Below are positions 1,007 to 51,375 of a stretch of DNA of 59,391 nt, one piece after another. The translations under genes and the position numbers were made by a program. Source of the DNA: Marinobacterium rhizophilum DSM 18822 (lineage in GTDB: Bacteria; Pseudomonadota; Gammaproteobacteria; Pseudomonadales; Balneatricaceae); the NCBI RefSeq assembly GCF_000378045.1, contig NZ_KB899117.1:1-59391 (forward strand), written 5' to 3'. Every line of letters begins with the position of its first letter. Position 1 is the first letter of the stretch. Under the pieces are notes generated by a model. It was not told the DNA's origin and searched no databases. It was given only the letters and a program-made list of their open reading frames with translations.

Positions 1007-1516
1007 TGAGCTACACTCCTGTACTGATTCGCTGATCAGCCTTGTTGTTATATTTCTTGTCTTCCCTCCTCTGCGTAATCAGGTCATGCAGTGGGGAGCG
1101 AGGGTGTGTCCATTACACGCTTGCGCGCCGATCAAAACAAATGCAAAAACCACCCGATTTCTATACTTTTTTGCACTCCTGAAAAGTAGAAGATCCAGAA
1201 GAAAACAAAAAAAGTTAAACTTATACCTTTTATTTCAATTAGTTATCGAAACGAAGGGGGGTGACTCTAAAAAATGAAGTGTACAGGTTATCGACGCTGC
1301 GCTAGTCTGAAGCCGTTTCCCGCTTAGCGCCCGAGCTGCCTGTCAGGCTTGACCGGTCGTAACGAGGGAAAGTCCGTTTTGAGGCAGTTTTTGAGCTCTT
1401 TTGAGGCGAATAGTGGTTCTATTTAACAAAAAAGAGGACAAAAAATGACCAGAATCGGCTTTTCCGCAGTAGATCAGTGTTAAGTCCGACAGGCTGCCAG
1501 GAGGCCCGTTCAAGCC
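1007..1516. promoter_or_regulatory. Divergent promoter region between binding protein and AraC regulator
   Basis: This is a 510-base non-coding stretch, notably AT-rich from about 1130 to 1290 against a GC-rich background. It holds an inverted repeat, TGCAAAAA at 1142-1149 and TTTTTGCA at 1168-1175, about 140 bases upstream of the binding-protein start. That is a reasonable place for the regulator to bind, but AraC proteins usually bind direct repeats, so the assignment is weak. No ORF or RNA gene is recognisable. Confidence 0.45.
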
Positions 1517-2413
1517 ATGTCCCAGCGTGCCGATCGACAGGCAGATCCTGCCTACGAACTCATCAATCCCCTTGAGCATAGCTCGATCATGTACCGCCAG
1601 CATGGTTTTCCCCATCCACTGGTACGCTGGCATTATCACCGCGAATACGAACTGCACCTGATCACACAGAGCTCTGGCAAGGTCTTCGTGGGTGATTACA
1701 TCGGCAATTTTTACCCCGGCAACCTGATCCTCACCGGCCCCAACCTGCCCCATAACTGGATCAGCCAGACCGATAATGGCGAAACCTTCGACGAACGCGA
1801 CAGGGTCGTCACCTTTACCGATGAACTGATCCAGTCGGCTCGCGCAGTATTTCCGGAGATCACCTCCCTCGACGCCCTGCTGCAGCGTTCAAGGTTCGGC
1901 ATTCAGTTTCAGGGCCCGGCGCTGATCAGCCAGGTTAGCGCGCTGATGCAGGAAATATCGCAAACCGAAGGCCTCAGACGATTGGCGGCCTTTTTAAGTT
2001 TAATGAGCCTGCTGGCGGAATCCGATCAGTACAATCTGCTGTCCAGCGATCAGTACCAGCGCCTTGGCGGCGAGAAAAACCAGCACCGGGTCAATCTGGC
2101 GGTGAACTACATTGTCGAACATTACAACCGCGACCTGGGTCTGGACGAAGTCGCCGAACACCTGGGGATGCAACCGACCTATTTTTCGAAGTTCTTTCGC
2201 CAGGCCACAGGGCGGCGTTTCGTCGAATTTATCAACAGCCTGCGCATCACGCGGGCCTGCGACCTGCTGGCCCACAGCGATCTGCCCATCACCGAGATCT
2301 GCTTCGATGTGGGCTTTACCAACATCTCCAACTTCAATCGCCGCTTCCAGGCACTCAAGGGCATGACGCCATCGGACTACCGCAAACTGGCGCCAGTCGC
2401 CAGCGCGACCTGA
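1517..2413 (+). CDS. AraC-family regulator, MtlR-like
   Basis: This 298-residue transcription activator has an N-terminal cupin sensor domain (about residues 25-110; WHYHREYELHLI and the LTGPNLPHNW turn) and a C-terminal double helix-turn-helix (about residues 185-290; ending with the NISNFNRRFQALKGMTPSDYR signature). It is divergent from a polyol-type ABC binding protein, the arrangement known for mannitol/arabitol operon activators in pseudomonads, so control of that transporter is likely. The start at 1517 has AGGAGG about 12 bases upstream, a slightly long spacing. The effector is not readable from sequence. Confidence 0.85.
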   Translation: MSQRADRQADPAYELINPLEHSSIMYRQHGFPHPLVRWHYHREYELHLITQSSGKVFVGDYIGNFYPGNLILTGPNLPHNWISQTDNGETFDERDRVVTFTDELIQSARAVFPEITSLDALLQRSRFGIQFQGPALISQVSALMQEISQTEGLRRLAAFLSLMSLLAESDQYNLLSSDQYQRLGGEKNQHRVNLAVNYIVEHYNRDLGLDEVAEHLGMQPTYFSKFFRQATGRRFVEFINSLRITRACDLLAHSDLPITEICFDVGFTNISNFNRRFQALKGMTPSDYRKLAPVASAT

Positions 2414-2432
2414 GGCTTGCCGAGCGCAAGCC
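2414..2432. terminator. Small hairpin between convergent genes
   Basis: GGCTTGC (2414-2420) pairs with GCAAGCC (2426-2432) across a 5-base loop, directly after the AraC regulator stop and before the hutG stop. There is no strong T-run, so termination is only suggested. Confidence 0.35.
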
Positions 2433-2465
2433 CGCCCGCCGGTAATAAAATCTGCTGACCCGCGA

Positions 2466-3257
2466 TCAGTGCCCTTTCCAATCCAGCGCCGCCTGCAGCA
2501 GCTGCCTGAGGACCTGCCGAGTGGGTTGTGCCAGATCCGGGCGAAAGCCAAAGGGTTCGGTTTCATCCATGTAGGTACATTGCGCCAGTTCCAGCTGAAC
2601 GGCGTGAATACCCGCCTGCGGATCGCCATACTGGCGGGTGATATAGCCGCCCTTGAAGCGACCGTTAAATACGTGGCTGTAGTCCTTTTGCTGTGCGCAC
2701 ACCGCCTGCAACCGCGCCGCCAGCTCAGGATTGCAGCTGGCACCACTGTTGGTGCCCAGGTTCAGGTCCGGCAGGCGGCCGTCGAACAGGCGCGGGACCT
2801 GCGATCGGATGGAATGTGCATCCCAGAGCAGCGCATAGCCGAACTCGGCCTTGAGGCGCTGCAACTCCGCCTGCAGGGTCTGGTGATAGGGAGTCCAGAT
2901 CTCTGCCAGGTAACGGGCACGTTCCTGTGCAGACGGCGCCAGCCCGTCGCGGAACAGCGGACGGCCATCGAACAGCGTATTCGGGTAGAGCCCGGTGGTG
3001 GCCGTGGCGTACAGCGGCGTGTCGTCGGCCGGGCGGTTGAGATCGATCACATAGCGCGAATAACGTGCCTCCAGCACACTGGCCCCCAGCGCGCCTGCAA
3101 AATCGTACAGCTCGGGAATGTGCCAGTCGGTATCGGCGAGATTCATCGCCTCGGGCACCAGCCCCGCCTCGACAGCCGGTGTCAGGCATGTACCGGGATG
3201 CGGCATGCTGATCAGCAGCGGCACTCGACCGCGCGTGAAATTTAGAACGTTCTCCAT
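2466..3257 (-). CDS. hutG: N-formylglutamate deformylase (HutG)
   Basis: HutG hydrolyses N-formyl-L-glutamate to glutamate and formate, the last step of the five-step histidine pathway in pseudomonads. It has 263 residues, normal for the family. The N-terminus carries the SMPHPGT motif (residues 17-23), and further on come YVIDLNRP and the metal/active-site segment LLWDAHSIRS. The start at 3257 is set by GGAGG seven bases upstream. It lies on the same strand as hutD, and hutF is divergent from hutD; together these genes finish formimidoylglutamate breakdown. A HutC-like palindrome about 150 bases upstream suggests its own regulated promoter. Confidence 0.93.
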   Translation of the reverse strand: MENVLNFTRGRVPLLISMPHPGTCLTPAVEAGLVPEAMNLADTDWHIPELYDFAGALGASVLEARYSRYVIDLNRPADDTPLYATATTGLYPNTLFDGRPLFRDGLAPSAQERARYLAEIWTPYHQTLQAELQRLKAEFGYALLWDAHSIRSQVPRLFDGRLPDLNLGTNSGASCNPELAARLQAVCAQQKDYSHVFNGRFKGGYITRQYGDPQAGIHAVQLELAQCTYMDETEPFGFRPDLAQPTRQVLRQLLQAALDWKGH

Positions 3258-3407
3258 GGATACCTCCGTATGCTCCGTTTATGTTTGCGGATGCTGCGTG
3301 GCAACCGGGCCTGCCCGTAAAACGGCCTGGCCGGCGGCACACGCAAAGCCGCTCCAGACCGGGGAAAAAACAGGACCAAGCCGGCTGGCCGGGCTTCACA
3401 CTCTAAA

Positions 3408-3417
3408 TGTATATACA
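3408..3417. promoter_or_regulatory. HutC-like operator upstream of hutG
   Basis: The 10-base perfect palindrome TGTATATACA lies in the 288-base gap between hutG and hutD. The identical site occurs at 4267-4276 before hutF. It resembles the HutC (GntR family) core known from pseudomonads, so urocanate-responsive repression is the likely role. HutC itself is not encoded in this window. The rest of the gap shows no ORF. Confidence 0.65.
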
Positions 3418-3545
3418 AATATCTTTACAGGCCACTGAACATCACAGATGCCAACTCTGCACACCGTCTCGATACTATCCGCTTCGACAGCATCCGATTA
3501 AAAGCCAAGCGGGCCGGGCTCAGAACAGCGTCTGCTCACCCGGTG

Positions 3546-4130
3546 CTAAAGGGGCGTCAATTCAATCAGGCAGCAGTTCAGCGCCACCGGCGCCGACAGC
3601 GTCAGTTCCAGCAGCTTCCCGTCGCCGCCGATGCCAAGACAGTCGTAACGTCCCAGCACACCGCAGTCGTCTCCTTGCCGGTTAACCTGCAGGCCCTCGC
3701 CAGCGCTGAACAGCAGGACGGTTGCTGCCGAGCTGAACAGCCGCTGGGCCTGCTCTATGCGCAGCCACTGCAGGCGCGCGCTATAACGCTGGGGCGCATA
3801 GATCAGGTTGAAATCACGGATTGCACCGTTCAGCAGGCGACACTCCACCCGGCTGTCTCCCGCAAAGGCATAGGGATCAAAGGCGCGCAGCGGGCGAGAA
3901 TCGGCACCGTCGACGCTCAGGCACATACCCTCTCCCTCCAGCACACTGATGATGCGTTGGTATCCGGCGAACGACGAAAAGGCGCCCGCCTCGTCGATAT
4001 CCGCGATCGATACGCGCCAGCCAAACCCATCCAGGTTCACGCCGGCATCGCGCATGATTTCCAGCGTGGTGCCTGCACCGTTTTTCCAGGGCATGCGCGG
4101 ATACCCTGGCGCGCGCAAAAGTTGAATCAT
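3546..4130 (-). CDS. hutD: HutD family protein
   Basis: HutD is a bicupin accessory protein of histidine utilisation. It is thought to limit hut expression or bind formylglutamate or a related metabolite; it is not a core enzyme. The 194 residues match the family length. The start MIQLLRAPGYPRMPWKNG at 4130 is typical of HutD and has GAAGGAAAGG just upstream; the frame is open further upstream, but those residues do not look like HutD. Later signatures include GWRVSIADIDEAGAFSSF and the glycine-rich VLEGEGM turn. It is divergent from hutF, with the HutC-like sites between them. Confidence 0.9.
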   Translation of the reverse strand: MIQLLRAPGYPRMPWKNGAGTTLEIMRDAGVNLDGFGWRVSIADIDEAGAFSSFAGYQRIISVLEGEGMCLSVDGADSRPLRAFDPYAFAGDSRVECRLLNGAIRDFNLIYAPQRYSARLQWLRIEQAQRLFSSAATVLLFSAGEGLQVNRQGDDCGVLGRYDCLGIGGDGKLLELTLSAPVALNCCLIELTPL

Positions 4131-4254
4131 GATCGAAACCTTTCCTTCAGGCTGTGACACATCCTCGAACACTGCAGGTGCGTATTGAACAGGCGTATCG
4201 TTAAGCCCCATGATTGAGCCGTGAAAATAGCAGTTTACGCACCTTGAAAACACA

Positions 4255-10691: not shown

Positions 10692-10799
10692 AGTAAAACC
10701 GGAACTGAGTGATGCAATGACCCCAGGGCAGTCCGTGTAAGGGCTTCGTCGAGTACACAGGACCTTGCCTGCATGTAGCGGCCATTGCAGGGGCCCTTA

Positions 10800-12308
10800 A
10801 TGAACGAATCGGGAAAAGTCGCGAAAATGAATACTAAAGTCGCGAATGTTATTGAAAAAGACGCTATATTACCGGAACGCATCAGCACCGGGGTATCCGG
10901 GCTAGAGGAAATACTGGGGGGCGGCTTTATTCCCCAGGGCGCCTACCTGGTACGCGGCGCGCCGGGCAGCGGCAAGACCATGCTGGGATTGCACTTTTTG
11001 ACGGCCGGCACGCAAAAGGGCGAGCAGTGCCTGTTCATCACCCTGGGTGAAACCGAACAACAGATTCGCAAGAATGCCGCCTCGCTGGGTTTCGACCTGC
11101 AAGGCGTCTCCTTTCTGGACCTGAGCCCTTCGCCTGAGTTTTTCACCGAGGACCAGAGCTACGATATCTTTCACCCCGCCGAGGTGGAACGCGAGCCGAT
11201 CACCCGCAAGATCATCGAGCAGGTCGTGGCCATCAGGCCCCGCCGGGTTTTTCTCGATGCCCTCACCCAGTTCCGTTATTTGTCGACCGACCAACTGGAA
11301 TTTCACAAGCAGGCATTTTCGTTCCTGCGCTATCTGCGCGAATCGGGCGCCACGGTGGTCTTCTCCTCGGACAGCAGCCCGGAGGCCCCCGATGACGACC
11401 TGCAGTTCATGAGTGACGGCATTATCCAGCTGGAATGCAGCGATATGGAGCGTCGCCTTTTCGTCACCAAGATGCGCGGCTCGAGTTTTCGCATGGGCCA
11501 CCATACCTTTCGCCTGACCGCCAGGGGCATGGAAGTATCACCGATCCTGGTACCCGACAGCCTGCACGAAGGGAAGGCACCGGTCGTTAGCGGCGAAATG
11601 ATTGCCTCTGATATACCGGAGCTGGATGCGCTGTTGCACGGCGGCCTGGACCAAGGCTCGACAACGGTACTGACCGGCCCCAGCGGCGTGGGCAAGACCA
11701 CCGTCGGCGTGCAGTTCATGCGCGCTTCCGCCAGCCGGCAGGAGCGAGCGGCCCTTTATATCTTCGAAGAGGGGCTGGAGTCACTCTTGCGCCGGTGCGA
11801 GGCGATCAACCTGCCTATTCGCCCGTTGATCGACAACGGCTGGTTGAAGATTGTACCCATCGAGCCCCTGAGCTTCACGGCCGATGAGTTCTCCAGCCTG
11901 ATATGCCGGGATGTGGAGGAGTCCAACGTCCGCCTCGTGATGATTGACAGTGTCGCCGGCTACAACATGAGCCTGCGTGGCAAGGACCTCGTCAGTCATC
12001 TGCACGCCCTGACCCGATACCTCAAGAGCAAAGGTGTCAGCACCATTCTGGTCAACGAACTGGAGGCGCTCAGCGGAGACTTCCATATTTCTGAAATCGG
12101 TATCAGTTATCTGGCCGATGACATCATCTTCCTGCGCTATCTGGAGCTCAATGGAGAGCTGCGCAAGGCGATGGGTGTCATCAAGAAACGCGTGGGCGAC
12201 TTCGAAAAAACCCTGCGAGAACTCGAAATCACCCCTGATGGCCTAAAACTCGGCGCGCCAATGACCCGTTTGCGCGGCCTTTTGAGCAGTAGGGCACAAC
12301 TTATTTAG
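10800..12308 (+). CDS. Double-domain KaiC-like ATPase
   Basis: This 502-residue RecA-superfamily protein has two KaiC domains. CI: Walker A GAPGSGKT at 53-60, Walker B RVFLDAL near 149-155. CII: Walker A GPSGVGKT at 293-300, catalytic EE at 323-324, Walker B LVMIDS at 379-384. The CI catalytic pair is GE (83-84) rather than EE. By my alignment to cyanobacterial KaiC, phosphosite S431 is kept (HIS431), T432 is Glu, and T426 is Gly. No KaiA or KaiB is nearby. The ATG at 10800 has AGGGG six bases upstream; a TTG at 10785 is less likely. It leads an operon with receiver, PP2C and STAS genes, so a role in stress or partner-switch signalling is more likely than a clock. Confidence 0.9.
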   Translation: MNESGKVAKMNTKVANVIEKDAILPERISTGVSGLEEILGGGFIPQGAYLVRGAPGSGKTMLGLHFLTAGTQKGEQCLFITLGETEQQIRKNAASLGFDLQGVSFLDLSPSPEFFTEDQSYDIFHPAEVEREPITRKIIEQVVAIRPRRVFLDALTQFRYLSTDQLEFHKQAFSFLRYLRESGATVVFSSDSSPEAPDDDLQFMSDGIIQLECSDMERRLFVTKMRGSSFRMGHHTFRLTARGMEVSPILVPDSLHEGKAPVVSGEMIASDIPELDALLHGGLDQGSTTVLTGPSGVGKTTVGVQFMRASASRQERAALYIFEEGLESLLRRCEAINLPIRPLIDNGWLKIVPIEPLSFTADEFSSLICRDVEESNVRLVMIDSVAGYNMSLRGKDLVSHLHALTRYLKSKGVSTILVNELEALSGDFHISEIGISYLADDIIFLRYLELNGELRKAMGVIKKRVGDFEKTLRELEITPDGLKLGAPMTRLRGLLSSRAQLI

Positions 12309-12324
12309 CGCAAGAGTGGTTCAC

Positions 12325-12732
12325 ATGGTTTCTGAAGACGGCCCCTTGATCTTGGCTGTTAATCACAACCGGCGAAACCTGGATCTATTGAAACAGTTTC
12401 TGAGCGAAGACGGATATCGAATTGTCGCCGCGAGCAGCCTGAAAGAACTCGGCGAGGCATTGAATGCTGAACAACATATCGAGCTGGCGCTGGTGGATGT
12501 CAGCGGCTTTGACCCTGGTATATGGCGCCACTGCGAGCACATGCGTATCAGGCAGTTGCCTTATCTCGTACTGGTATCAAGCAAAGAGGCTGCCGGCAGC
12601 CTGCATCAGGGCTGCTGCCATGGCGCCCGCTATGTGCTGGTCAAACCGATGCGAAAAAAGGAGCTACGCTTGATCCTGAACGGCTGTTGCAGGCATCACG
12701 ATGAACCGGATTCTACTATTACTGGACCATGA
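12325..12732 (+). CDS. Stand-alone receiver domain, degenerate
   Basis: This is a 135-residue single response-regulator receiver domain. The phospho-acceptor is D58 (LALVDVSG) and the conserved lysine is K107 (VLVKPM). The N-terminal acidic pair that binds magnesium is replaced by N13-H14-N15, so phosphorylation by a histidine kinase may be weak or absent. It follows the KaiC-like gene by 16 bases and its end overlaps the next gene by 32 bases, so it belongs to the same transcript. A GTG at 12316 is an alternative start; the ATG at 12325 has the better upstream GAGTGG. Confidence 0.8.
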   Translation: MVSEDGPLILAVNHNRRNLDLLKQFLSEDGYRIVAASSLKELGEALNAEQHIELALVDVSGFDPGIWRHCEHMRIRQLPYLVLVSSKEAAGSLHQGCCHGARYVLVKPMRKKELRLILNGCCRHHDEPDSTITGP

Positions 12733-13831
12733 GGAAAACCGACGCCTGCTGGCACAGTGGCTGGAGCCGCAATACCAGATACTGCCCAACACAACCAACG
12801 CACTGCTGGCGGGCACCTTTGATCTGTGCATTCTCGATGCCCCCGCCCTGAACCGGCTCTGGCAGCAGGTCGAGGCCAGAAAAACGCGGGAACGCCCGCT
12901 ATTCCTGCCGTTTCTGGTGGTCATCTCGCAACGTTACGACCATATGATTACCGGGCTTGTGCGCCAGTGTGTCGATGAGCTCATCAACAGTCCGGTGGAG
13001 AAAACCGAACTGGTCGTGCGACTGGAAAACCTGATGCGCATTCGCCAGCTGTCCCTGGAGCTGGAGGCCGCGAACGCTCAACTGCAGCGCAACCTGCAGC
13101 GCATGAAAGACGACGAAGAAGGCGGCCGCCACATCCAGTTTCAACTGCTGCCCACGCAGAACAAGCAGCTCGGCCCGTATGAATTCAGTCACAGGCTGAT
13201 CACCTCCGCGTACCTCAGCGGCGATTTCATCGACTATTTCGCCATCGACGACCAGCATCTGGGATTCTATATGGCGGACGTCTCGGGTCACGGGGTCTCG
13301 TCGGCCTTCATCACGGTGCTGCTGAAAAGCTATATGACACGCTACCTGGAGGACTATCGGGAGAACCGCGACACAGCCATCCTGCGGCCGCACGAAGTGC
13401 TCGGCCGCCTGAACCATGAGATCTGCAGCGCCCAGCTGGGTAAATACCTGACCATGTTTTACGGCGTGATCAACCAGCCCGACAACCAGCTGCTGTTCAG
13501 CCAGGGCGGCCAGTTCCCCTTCCCCATGCTGTTTGACGGATCCGGCTCGCGCTTTGTCGGCATCAAGAGCCTCCCGGTCGGGCTGTTCGAGTTCGCCGAA
13601 TACGAGACCCTCAGCCTGGAGCTGCCGCCCGCGTTCACCATGGCCCTGATCTCGGATGGCATACTGGAAGTGCTGCCGCACACGCAACTCAAGGACCAGC
13701 TGGCGTTCCTGCTATCCTTAATCAGCAAGAACGACATGACCATAGAGTCGCTGATTCGCGCACTTGCATTGAATAACCAGAGCCCACTGCCGGACGATAT
13801 AACCTTCCTTATGATCCGAAAACGGAGTTGA
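12701..13831 (+). CDS. Receiver-PP2C (SpoIIE-type) serine phosphatase
   Basis: This 376-residue protein has an N-terminal receiver-like domain (1-112; putative phospho-Asp D46), a coiled coil about 115-140, and a SpoIIE/RsbU-type PP2C phosphatase domain (150-374). Metal motifs are intact: GDFIDYF 174-180, ADVSGHG 192-198, ISDGILE, and a terminal DDITFLMI. The receiver lacks the usual lysine (NSPVE in place of the KP motif). The order resembles Pseudomonas HsbR, but there is no C-terminal HATPase kinase domain. The likely substrate is the phospho-STAS protein encoded one base downstream. The start at 12701 overlaps the receiver gene, suggesting coupled translation. Confidence 0.88.
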   Translation: MNRILLLLDHEENRRLLAQWLEPQYQILPNTTNALLAGTFDLCILDAPALNRLWQQVEARKTRERPLFLPFLVVISQRYDHMITGLVRQCVDELINSPVEKTELVVRLENLMRIRQLSLELEAANAQLQRNLQRMKDDEEGGRHIQFQLLPTQNKQLGPYEFSHRLITSAYLSGDFIDYFAIDDQHLGFYMADVSGHGVSSAFITVLLKSYMTRYLEDYRENRDTAILRPHEVLGRLNHEICSAQLGKYLTMFYGVINQPDNQLLFSQGGQFPFPMLFDGSGSRFVGIKSLPVGLFEFAEYETLSLELPPAFTMALISDGILEVLPHTQLKDQLAFLLSLISKNDMTIESLIRALALNNQSPLPDDITFLMIRKRS

Positions 13832-13832
13832 G

Positions 13833-14321
13833 ATGGAAACGGGTACTGTCTTCTATGCCAAACAAGGGCGCACCTACGTGCTGAAGCTGGTCGGCGAGCT
13901 TCGCTACACCCAGGGCGAGAACTTCAATGCGTTCCTCGAGCGGCTGTTTCAGCGCCAGGACTTCGATCAGATTCTGATTGACCTCAGCGGCACGGAATCC
14001 ATCGACAGCACCATGCTGGGGCTGTTGGCCAAGGTCGCCAACTTCATGCGTGACCGCTTCCAGCGCAAGGCCATCCTGGTGTCCACCAACGAGAATATCA
14101 GCCAGCTACTGGATAGCCTGGGCTTCTGCGAAGTGTTCAACGTTTGCGAACAGCCGGACACCGAGACCGGCGCCCTGCAGCCCTTGTCATGCGCCAGCAC
14201 CAGGACAGAGGACATGGCCGCGACCATACTTGAAGCCCATACCATTCTCAGCGAAGTAAAAGACAGCAACAAGGTTCTGTTCAGGGATGTGATAGACGCC
14301 CTGAAAGACTCTACAGGCTGA
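13833..14321 (+). CDS. STAS-domain anti-sigma factor antagonist, HsbA-like
   Basis: This 162-residue protein has an N-terminal STAS domain (about 5-108). The phosphorylatable serine is in place at S59 in the SIDSTMLGLL motif. A C-terminal extension of about 50 residues has no recognised domain. It begins one base after the phosphatase stop, with GGAG six bases upstream. Such proteins switch between partners according to Ser phosphorylation, with the PP2C enzyme removing the phosphate. No anti-sigma kinase is encoded in the operon. The operon ends here, and a hairpin follows at 14432. Confidence 0.85.
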   Translation: METGTVFYAKQGRTYVLKLVGELRYTQGENFNAFLERLFQRQDFDQILIDLSGTESIDSTMLGLLAKVANFMRDRFQRKAILVSTNENISQLLDSLGFCEVFNVCEQPDTETGALQPLSCASTRTEDMAATILEAHTILSEVKDSNKVLFRDVIDALKDSTG

Positions 14322-14431: not shown

Positions 14432-14457
14432 AACGGGGAGGCATCCGCCTCCCCGTT
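14432..14457. terminator. Bidirectional terminator
   Basis: AACGGGGAGGC (14432-14442) pairs perfectly with GCCTCCCCGTT (14447-14457) across 4 bases. It lies between the KaiC-like operon (+) and the SPW gene (-); a T-run follows on the minus strand. Confidence 0.8.
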
Positions 14458-50127: not shown

Positions 50128-51375
50128 TTAGCGAGAGACCGGGCCGGGTTCGAGCTTGAGCCGGTACTCGTTGGCCATCATCTGCCAGCGCGACAGATTC
50201 TTCGCGATCCCCAGGCGCTCCAGATAGGATTCCGACAACTTGCACGAGAGGTCGGCACCGGGGCCGTTGACCAGGGCAGGCAGGAGCGCGTCGGCCAGAT
50301 GCACCGCAGTCAAGGGCTCAAAACGGCTACTGGGGGATGCGGCCGGAAAATGGTGCAGCAGCACGGCCTCGACCACGCTGAACGGCAAATTCCACATTCC
50401 CAGCAGATAGGCTGCGGCTTCGGCATGGGTGAGCCCCAGGCGCATTTTCTCCATGGCATACATGGGCTGCCCCAGACGCACGGCTTCACCCATCAGGGTC
50501 TGATAAGCCTCCGGGTCCTTGTTGGCCAATACCGAAATGCCAAAATCGTGCAGCAGGCCGGCCAGAAAGGCCTGCCCCTGCTGATTGCGATCCAGTCCTG
50601 CATCCGCACCCAGCTGCTGCGCCAGACGGGCGACCAGCATGGAACGCTGATGTAGCTTGGAGAAGGAGAACGCCGTCCAGGTATCGCGCTGCCGGAAACG
50701 GCTGAACAGGTGCGTGGCCAGCAACAGATCACGGATCATGCGTACACCGATAATGGTCACCGCCTCATCGATACGGCTGATCTGGCGGCGCAGGCCGAAC
50801 AGGGCCGAATTGACCAGCTGCATGATCTTGGCGGCAATGGCCGGATCCTGCTCAATAATACTGGCAATGTTTTTGGCATCGGCCACGTCGGAATTCAAGG
50901 CTTCATTCAGCTCACGATAAACCGTTGGCAAGGTGGGCAGTCGCCCCAGACCACTGATGTAATCCCGAATGGCTGACTTGTTAACCAGACCTTCAATCTT
51001 CAGCGCATATTCGATGGCAGCGCAAATCTCGACACCACTGGCGGTGTCAGGCAGCGTCTGGTGGGCCACTTCCAGCGCCCGCGCGGAACTGGCCGGTGTA
51101 AGGTGTCCGCTGATCAGTATACGCAAGATCCCCGGACGCTCGTCAGCCACCTTTTTCAGCAACCCCAGCGCCCTGTATGGCTGCTGATGAGCCACGACGA
51201 CCAACACCTGGCAGTCGTAGTATTTCATCCGCGTCTGGACCTCACCCTCGTCATCCAGACAAAGTACATCCCAGCCCGCATGCTTGCCCACTTCATGAGC
51301 CGCCCCGCGATGGCTGAGCTTGGAATCACAGAACAGAATTCTGCAGGTTTGATCGCGGCCTGTTGGCGGGCTCAT
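50128..51375 (-). CDS. Receiver-like plus HDOD signalling protein
   Basis: This 415-residue protein has an N-terminal receiver-like domain (about 10-125, with the putative Asp in QVLVVVAHQQ absent or replaced) and an HDOD domain (about 140-345; LPTLPTVYRELNEALNS, ASIIEQDPAIAAKIMQLVNS, FLAGLLHDFGISVLANKD). HDOD proteins act in c-di-GMP or stress signalling without the HD catalytic residues. AGGA lies eight bases before the ATG at 51375. It is divergent from metG; the gap is 145 bases. Its partner is unknown. Confidence 0.88.
   Translation of the reverse strand: MSPPTGRDQTCRILFCDSKLSHRGAAHEVGKHAGWDVLCLDDEGEVQTRMKYYDCQVLVVVAHQQPYRALGLLKKVADERPGILRILISGHLTPASSARALEVAHQTLPDTASGVEICAAIEYALKIEGLVNKSAIRDYISGLGRLPTLPTVYRELNEALNSDVADAKNIASIIEQDPAIAAKIMQLVNSALFGLRRQISRIDEAVTIIGVRMIRDLLLATHLFSRFRQRDTWTAFSFSKLHQRSMLVARLAQQLGADAGLDRNQQGQAFLAGLLHDFGISVLANKDPEAYQTLMGEAVRLGQPMYAMEKMRLGLTHAEAAAYLLGMWNLPFSVVEAVLLHHFPAASPSSRFEPLTAVHLADALLPALVNGPGADLSCKLSESYLERLGIAKNLSRWQMMANEYRLKLEPGPVSR

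Follow-up and report, generated by a model that had tools for sequence, protein, structure and literature searches.

We analysed a stretch of 59,391 nucleotides from Marinobacterium rhizophilum DSM 18822 (contig NZ_KB899117.1, positions 1 to 59,391; hereafter, the window), in which four open frames in tight order encode a KaiC-like ATPase, the small receiver that follows it (Rec1), a PP2C phosphatase carrying a shared N-terminal domain (Rec2, residues 1-130 of gene 3) and a STAS protein. Gene 1, Rec1 and Rec2 are a conserved module in cyanobacteria, Chloroflexota, haloarchaea and scattered Proteobacteria. Judged by sequence, the parts of the operon are known but their combination is new: the output on this conserved KaiC module has been swapped. 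The mechanism is presumptive; we regard it as reasonably probable that KaiC acts via Rec1 and Rec2 on a phosphatase dimer, which would in turn dephosphorylate the serine of the STAS protein. A preliminary description of the window had claimed the four genes in tight order, and their coordinates and domains were borne out by the open frames and by Pfam, which recognized KaiC in two stretches of gene 1. Its receiver with a damaged acidic pocket (gene 2) and its STAS protein with the phosphoserine in place (gene 4) also stood; gene 3, described as receiver–PP2C, does contain a SpoIIE domain and a predicted receiver fold, with the correction that the receiver itself is degenerate.

Species genomes were scanned with the window KaiC, 90 stretches were confirmed, and the best 80 loci were kept. 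A gene near KaiC, often placed after Rec1, starts with a domain matching Rec2, and the remainder of that gene differs. Such a Rec2 gene lay at most 1.5 kb from KaiC in 74 of the 80 loci, with outputs comprising 56 histidine kinases, 7 GGDEF-type, 6 Bat-HTH, 2 PP2C and 3 unclassified. These output labels are based on Pfam for examples only (HisKA/HATPase, GGDEF-EAL, BAT/GAF/HTH_10, SpoIIE, GGDEF and HD_5) and, for the remainder, on models built here on single members. Among the unclassified loci, Pfam found only PAS in L021 and PAS at a contig end in L079; in the third, from Chloroflexota (L027, 2316-4148), Rec2 is fused to PAS, GAF and HD_5, a further output class. Of the six KaiC loci without Rec2, two reach a contig end soon after Rec1 (L024 and L033), and four contain no Rec2 gene (L060, L063, L070 and L074).

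A Rec2 profile (A1, from 46 of 76 rows) was also run over whole genomes regardless of KaiC, each genome search scoring only the best candidates of the first pass. KaiC adjoined 72 of the 80 Rec2 places examined. In the Pseudomonadota class search, 62 of 369 genomes matched at E 1e-10, seven of them scoring at least 72 bits and the others, which are ordinary receivers, at most 57 bits; the phylum search matched 4 of 398 genomes at E 1e-18, one being the window genome again. KaiC stood beside eight of the ten distinct Rec2 places of this phylum and was absent in G387 and G054. Rec2 was found in 8 of 194 cyanobacterial genomes, at 13 places, 10 with KaiC (without: L203, L207 and L208); in 7 of 201 Chloroflexota genomes, at seven places, six with KaiC (without: L246); and in 1 of 240 Verrucomicrobiota genomes (L035), with KaiC. 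Haloarchaea were the richest, with Rec2 in 95 of 145 genomes at E 1e-14; KaiC was present at all 30 best places and at 17 of 19 places obtained by taking every fifth of 95 further ones (without: L262 and L264). As a control, KaiC was beside none of 23 ordinary receivers among the gammaproteobacterial search matches, within a flank of about 1.5 kb. A Rec2 match was present in 34 of the 35 genomes reached via KaiC loci. This conserved neighbourhood gives good support to the functional link proposed in the preliminary description, as far as the KaiC-like protein and the receiver genes are concerned.

The phosphatase and the STAS protein are, by their sequences, descendants of the RssB/RssC pair and not of HsbR/HsbA. 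In the PP2C domain of gene 3, the acidic residues D175, D193, D319, D365 and D366 are present in columns invariant over 21 rows. The NCBIfam RssB model scored 267 of 700 bits on gene 3, matching only from residue 107 (profile position 128); the genome's own RssB scored only 254 bits with this model, but from position 20. The RssC model scored 129.6 bits on gene 4 (cut-off, 250). A PDB search with gene 3 found Pseudomonas aeruginosa RssB (3eq2) with 228 bits over 107-373, and RssB was the first match of the predicted full-length model. In the PP2C tree (41 rows), the three Marinobacterium chimeras formed one clade (100/99), which joined the RssB of locus L222 (100/99), and the chimera and RssB rows stood apart from three HsbR-type rows. 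The STAS tree (37 rows), which has several long branches, gave the same neighbour (98/86); its motif was D-S-T in 36 of the 37 RssC-type rows and D-S-S in the other, with D58-S59 in all. Locus L222 (genome G009, 1330-4158) holds a second RssB-RssC pair of another genus, with a histidine kinase gene downstream, and its PP2C and STAS proteins are the nearest tree relatives of genes 3 and 4.

Because of these trees and the RssB match that begins only at residue 107, the sequences indicate that either an RssB-RssC pair swapped its receiver for Rec2, or Rec2 swapped a former output for PP2C. Compared with the RssB-RssC systems of Pseudomonas and Azotobacter (NF045505, NF045506; PDB 3eq2/3f7a), the operon has the PP2C domain with its acidic residues, the linker and an RssC-type STAS gene directly downstream, but Rec2 takes the place of the N-terminal RssB receiver, KaiC and Rec1 lie upstream, and the scores are below both curated cut-offs. 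A separate RssB-RssC pair is located on a different contig of the window genome. That the operon copies arose by recent duplication of the pair native to the genus is not supported, as they group with L222 and not with six same-genus pairs. The HsbR-HsbA-type module proposed in the preliminary description was not retained: nothing follows PP2C in gene 3, SpoIIE is the one domain there to pass the Pfam cut-off, a C-terminal kinase domain is lacking, and the PP2C has its own branch in the tree. The published HsbR-HsbA and CrsR-CrsA systems, in the part of PMC6482189 consulted, likewise combine a receiver–PP2C protein with a STAS partner, but gene 3 has no C-terminal kinase/anti-sigma domain and its PP2C branches apart.

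Both receivers are, by residue, pseudo-receivers. In Rec1, N16 H17 replace the acidic pair, and Asp61 and Lys110 are retained; in its family alignment (40 rows, of which 30 are distinct and two are ordinary receivers by eye), the phospho-Asp is kept in 40 rows and the Lys in 39, and the acidic pair is not kept. Rec2 of gene 3 has D9-H10 and Asp46 and lacks the conserved Lys; over the family, Asp46 is present in 72 of 76 rows, and the acidic pair and Lys are not conserved. In gene 3, Pfam missed the receiver even with the threshold relaxed to E = 1. The predicted Rec2 model nevertheless has a receiver fold, with a mean predicted local distance difference test (pLDDT) score of 89.1, and Foldseek matched it best to receivers. 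Among solved sequences, the Rec2 profile scored highest against the second receiver of PleD (67 bits). This receiver is an adaptor domain, and PleD holds two receivers and GGDEF within one chain; it is not known to be tied to KaiC. BcsE, for which the consulted part of PMC7439463 describes RecA-like, REC and GGDEF domains, was not among the 60 of 128 solved-sequence matches listed, and no direct comparison with it was made.

In the scheme that we favour, the KaiC-like ATPase, probably a ring, would read a cue via ATP turnover and perhaps via phosphorylation of S436, and its state would be passed to Rec1 and Rec2 by contact. Rec2, as a dimerization adaptor, would shift the register of the long helix leading into PP2C and so switch the phosphatase dimer between active and inactive states. 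This enzyme would dephosphorylate S59, whereupon the STAS protein would change its partner. The physical contact, the direction of control, the cue and the STAS target are parts that we infer. In the AlphaFold model of gene 3, a single helix of 49 residues (101-149) is predicted to run into the phosphatase. Most outputs of the kinds joined to Rec2 function as dimers. In the consulted parts of published articles, control of the phosphatase is connected with the crossing linker helices in RsbU and RssB (PMC12143880), and KaiA and CikA have pseudo-receivers that participate in the clock of cyanobacteria (PMC12632262).

Several observations weigh against this scheme. The form with a STAS gene has been seen in three species of a single genus. 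KaiC was missing from the surroundings of eight of the 80 Rec2 places, and of nine weaker or second-copy Rec2-like places only five had it (L150, L151, L153, L154 and L156, the last a fragment); those without were L149, L152, L155 (looking like ordinary receivers) and L157 (which starts at a contig end). The Rec2 profile was seeded from KaiC-adjacent loci, and some bias toward such matches remains. The PP2C of the Verrucomicrobial locus shares no more than 24% identity with any row in the PP2C tree and forms a very long branch, and no STAS gene follows it in the short remainder of the locus.

That locus (L035, 8577-9665) carries a Rec2-PP2C gene after KaiC, and the KaiC trees placed it near the window weakly (80; 85/75), along with L079, in which the gene after KaiC runs on into a PAS domain before the contig breaks off. 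A single origin of the PP2C output in Marinobacterium and L035 is unsupported, given the low identity and the long branch; the L035 output probably arose independently, to judge from its sequence. Since L035 is the only Rec2 genome of the 240, there was no second Verrucomicrobial PP2C case among them.

The strongest rival to the proposed control of the phosphatase is that genes 3 and 4 form a proteolysis adaptor for RpoS or another sigma factor, with KaiC gating the adaptor and not the phosphatase. RssB and RssC serve RpoS degradation, according to the consulted part of PMC12923157, so a sigma-factor target of the STAS protein is plausible by analogy, and the trees place genes 3 and 4 with this pair. 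The RssB receiver, however, is replaced in gene 3, and with another RssB-RssC pair retained elsewhere in the genome, there is no need for the operon copy to be an RpoS adaptor. We consider this rival possible but rather unlikely.

A different proposal came with the preliminary description, which took the missing kinase as a clue that the KaiC-like ATPase phosphorylates S59 in place of a Bergerat kinase. As it had stated, the operon encodes no Bergerat kinase: it contains no HATPase gene. In the genome, there were 33 matches to PF13581 (HATPase_c_2), and the six over the cut-off, which the scan covered, are ordinary histidine kinases. The window KaiC also has both Walker A lysines, the CII Glu pair and an intact S436 position. 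RssB, however, ended after PP2C in 29 of 29 loci (fetched of 50 places listed), with the STAS gene adjacent in all 29; a missing kinase is therefore normal for this type and gives no evidence for KaiC as the kinase. An HsbR-type kinase was not found beside RssB in these 29 loci by a model that recognized nothing beyond the eight rows used to seed it (two of them a single protein in two loci), so that a small separate kinase could be missed. Moreover, the family KaiC accompanies Rec2 irrespective of the kind of output, even where that output is a histidine kinase with a Bergerat domain of its own, and the window KaiC shares its S-Y and Glu residues with relatives beside kinase and GGDEF outputs. 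Across 119 distinct family sequences (near-copies removed), the Walker A Lys of both domains and the second CII Glu were invariant, and the first CII glutamate was E in 114 and D in 5. Residues S431, S436 and Y437 of the window protein occupy the T426, S431 and T432 places of KaiC, at which the family has T in 105 and S in 14, S in 117 and T in 2, and Y in 113, respectively; the circadian S431-T432 phosphosites are thus replaced by S-Y. The NCBIfam circadian KaiC models were below cut-off for gene 1 (237.8 versus 408 and 153.7 versus 546 bits).

The genome yielded four proteins of the SpoIIE family: RssB, the gene 3 product and two apparent fusions of PP2C with a Ser/Thr protein kinase, recognized by eye beside transporter-like genes (L198, 493-2226 of contig C26; L199, 1207-2976 of contig C5). 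The two fusions offer alternative kinase sources, and from their sequences it is possible that they are kinases for STAS proteins. KaiC as the S59 kinase is, on balance, improbable and unsupported, though its functional link with the receiver genes stands; most likely, the S59 kinase is encoded outside the operon.

The preliminary description had also proposed a genome search for the KaiC–receiver–PP2C–STAS order, which was found, in three Marinobacterium species only. Three of seven Marinobacterium genomes carry the KaiC-like gene at 81% identity or more, and G003 has only a 30% relative. No KaiC match at E 1e-40 or better occurred in 29 other-genus genomes of the family, and among genomes of the same taxonomic order, a 37% relative was present in 1 of 21. 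In genome G055 (L253, 6254-8074), a 37% KaiC is followed by a histidine kinase whose N-terminus, matching Rec2 at only 5 bits, may be a sister adaptor. M. profundum (L001) and a third Marinobacterium species (L247) keep all four genes in order between the same flanking genes, which makes the order more than chance. That the operon is a chance neighbourhood with no functional link is very improbable: the PP2C-STAS form is indeed seen in only three species of one genus, but KaiC and Rec2 are found linked in one phylum after another, and the order of the four genes persists between the same flanking genes despite divergence of the operon proteins to 65-82% identity.

The window KaiC is 82% identical to that of M. 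profundum and about 50-59% identical to those of many cyanobacteria and Chloroflexota, and both KaiC trees placed the Marinobacterium KaiC among cyanobacterial and Chloroflexota KaiC. These sequences suggest horizontal transfer from a cyanobacterial or Chloroflexota donor. This stays a suggestion because a single gammaproteobacterial KaiC group was not rejected in the approximately unbiased test (p-AU 0.115; 0.78 on the quick tree); the constraint with two subsets gave p 0.026 and 0.151. The fewest output changes, with unclassified rows omitted, were 7 on the quick KaiC tree, which is not the best tree (its free search missed a better one), 8 on the quick Rec2 tree (101 rows) and 5 on the careful 40-row KaiC tree. 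Among the 20 matches listed of 805 records in a plasmid search, four haloarchaeal ones matched the KaiC stretch and the others the gabD stretch.

Parts of this organization have been described. The consulted part of PMC3164672 (2011) reported, for Ramlibacter and others, a histidine kinase gene after KaiC whose product has a conserved N-terminal domain; it also described KaiC near receivers, kinases and GGDEF/EAL proteins. Those systems resemble the present one in their S-Y-type KaiC and in a next gene encoding a signalling protein whose N-terminal domain, weakly similar to receivers, was proposed to bind KaiC, but the output there is a histidine kinase, and here it is PP2C plus STAS. Rec2 is likened to the RtaNt domain of that study by description only, not by sequence. 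The text consulted of PMC5847659 cites Makarova, Galperin and Koonin (2017) for KaiC-like ATPase hubs of archaea tied to two-component proteins and calls the role of the divergent N-terminal REC of Bat obscure; a partner-switching output does not appear in that text, and the Rec2 domain common to bacterial and archaeal outputs is added here. A KaiC with PP2C/STAS output was not found in the literature searched, mostly without subscription journals. Four haloarchaeal Bat-type regulators (L047, L050, L054 and L177) carry an N-terminal Rec2 and adjoin a KaiC-like gene, with BAT and HTH_10 confirmed by Pfam in L047, L050 and L177; Rec2 in this position may explain the divergent REC of Bat.

The features of the operon are listed in Table 1. 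Gene 1 starts with ATG at 10800, with TTG at 10785 as a possible alternative; genes 2 and 3 overlap by 32 bases, and genes 3 and 4 are separated by one base. A promoter scan of the operon found 1 promoter versus 1.9 expected. The hairpin 3' of gene 4 was not picked up by the terminator scan. Elsewhere in the window, an HDOD-domain protein is encoded at 50128-51375 (-).

Table 1. Positions in the window of the operon genes, their domains and associated sites
Feature	Position	Strand	Basis
Gene 1, KaiC-like double RecA-domain ATPase, 502 aa	10800..12308	+	Pfam ATPase/KaiC E 1.8e-68, two stretches
Gene 1 domains CI and CII	CI about 10881-11543; CII about 11601-12287	+	
S436-Y437 of gene 1, aligned with KaiC S431-T432	12105..12110	+	Alignment to solved KaiC chains
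Gene 2, Rec1, small stand-alone putative pseudo-receiver	12316..12732	+	Pfam Response_reg 30.6 bits, E 4.2e-7
Gene 3, Rec2-PP2C	12701-13831	+	SpoIIE 101.8 bits
Rec2, N-terminal divergent putative pseudo-receiver of gene 3, KaiC-linked adaptor domain	12701..13087	+	N-terminus match near KaiC in most loci; predicted receiver fold
Predicted continuous helix, gene 3 residues 101-149, Rec2 to phosphatase	13001..13147	+	AlphaFold, block-mean pLDDT 87-92
RssB-type PP2C (SpoIIE) phosphatase domain of gene 3	13151..13822	+	SpoIIE 101.8 bits, E 6.2e-29
Gene 4, RssC-type STAS protein, 162 aa	13833..14321	+	Pfam STAS 40.5 bits, E 2.5e-10; tree
S59 of STAS protein, expected phosphoserine	14007..14009	+	D-S-T motif, aligned column
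Perfect 11-pair hairpin 3' of gene 4, possible terminator between convergent genes	14432..14457	.	Sequence inspection

These results suggest that one KaiC signalling hub can plug into different outputs. A wider reading, which we hold only tentatively, is that Rec2 serves as a universal plug by which KaiC-like rings are read in both bacteria and archaea, with six kinds of output (histidine kinase, GGDEF, GGDEF-EAL, HD, Bat-type DNA binding and PP2C with STAS) driven by KaiC-set dimerization and not by phosphotransfer. If this were true, the divergent N-terminal receiver of haloarchaeal Bat-type regulators would be a KaiC reader, and the operon in the window would be a KaiC-timed or energy-gated partner switch. 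For the signal output of KaiC-like ATPases beyond the cyanobacterial clock, a single adaptor domain gives one testable handle, and a shared adaptor offers a role for the divergent Bat receiver noted in the consulted part of PMC5847659. The operon points to a way in which a sigma-factor switch could be coupled to an ATPase ring.

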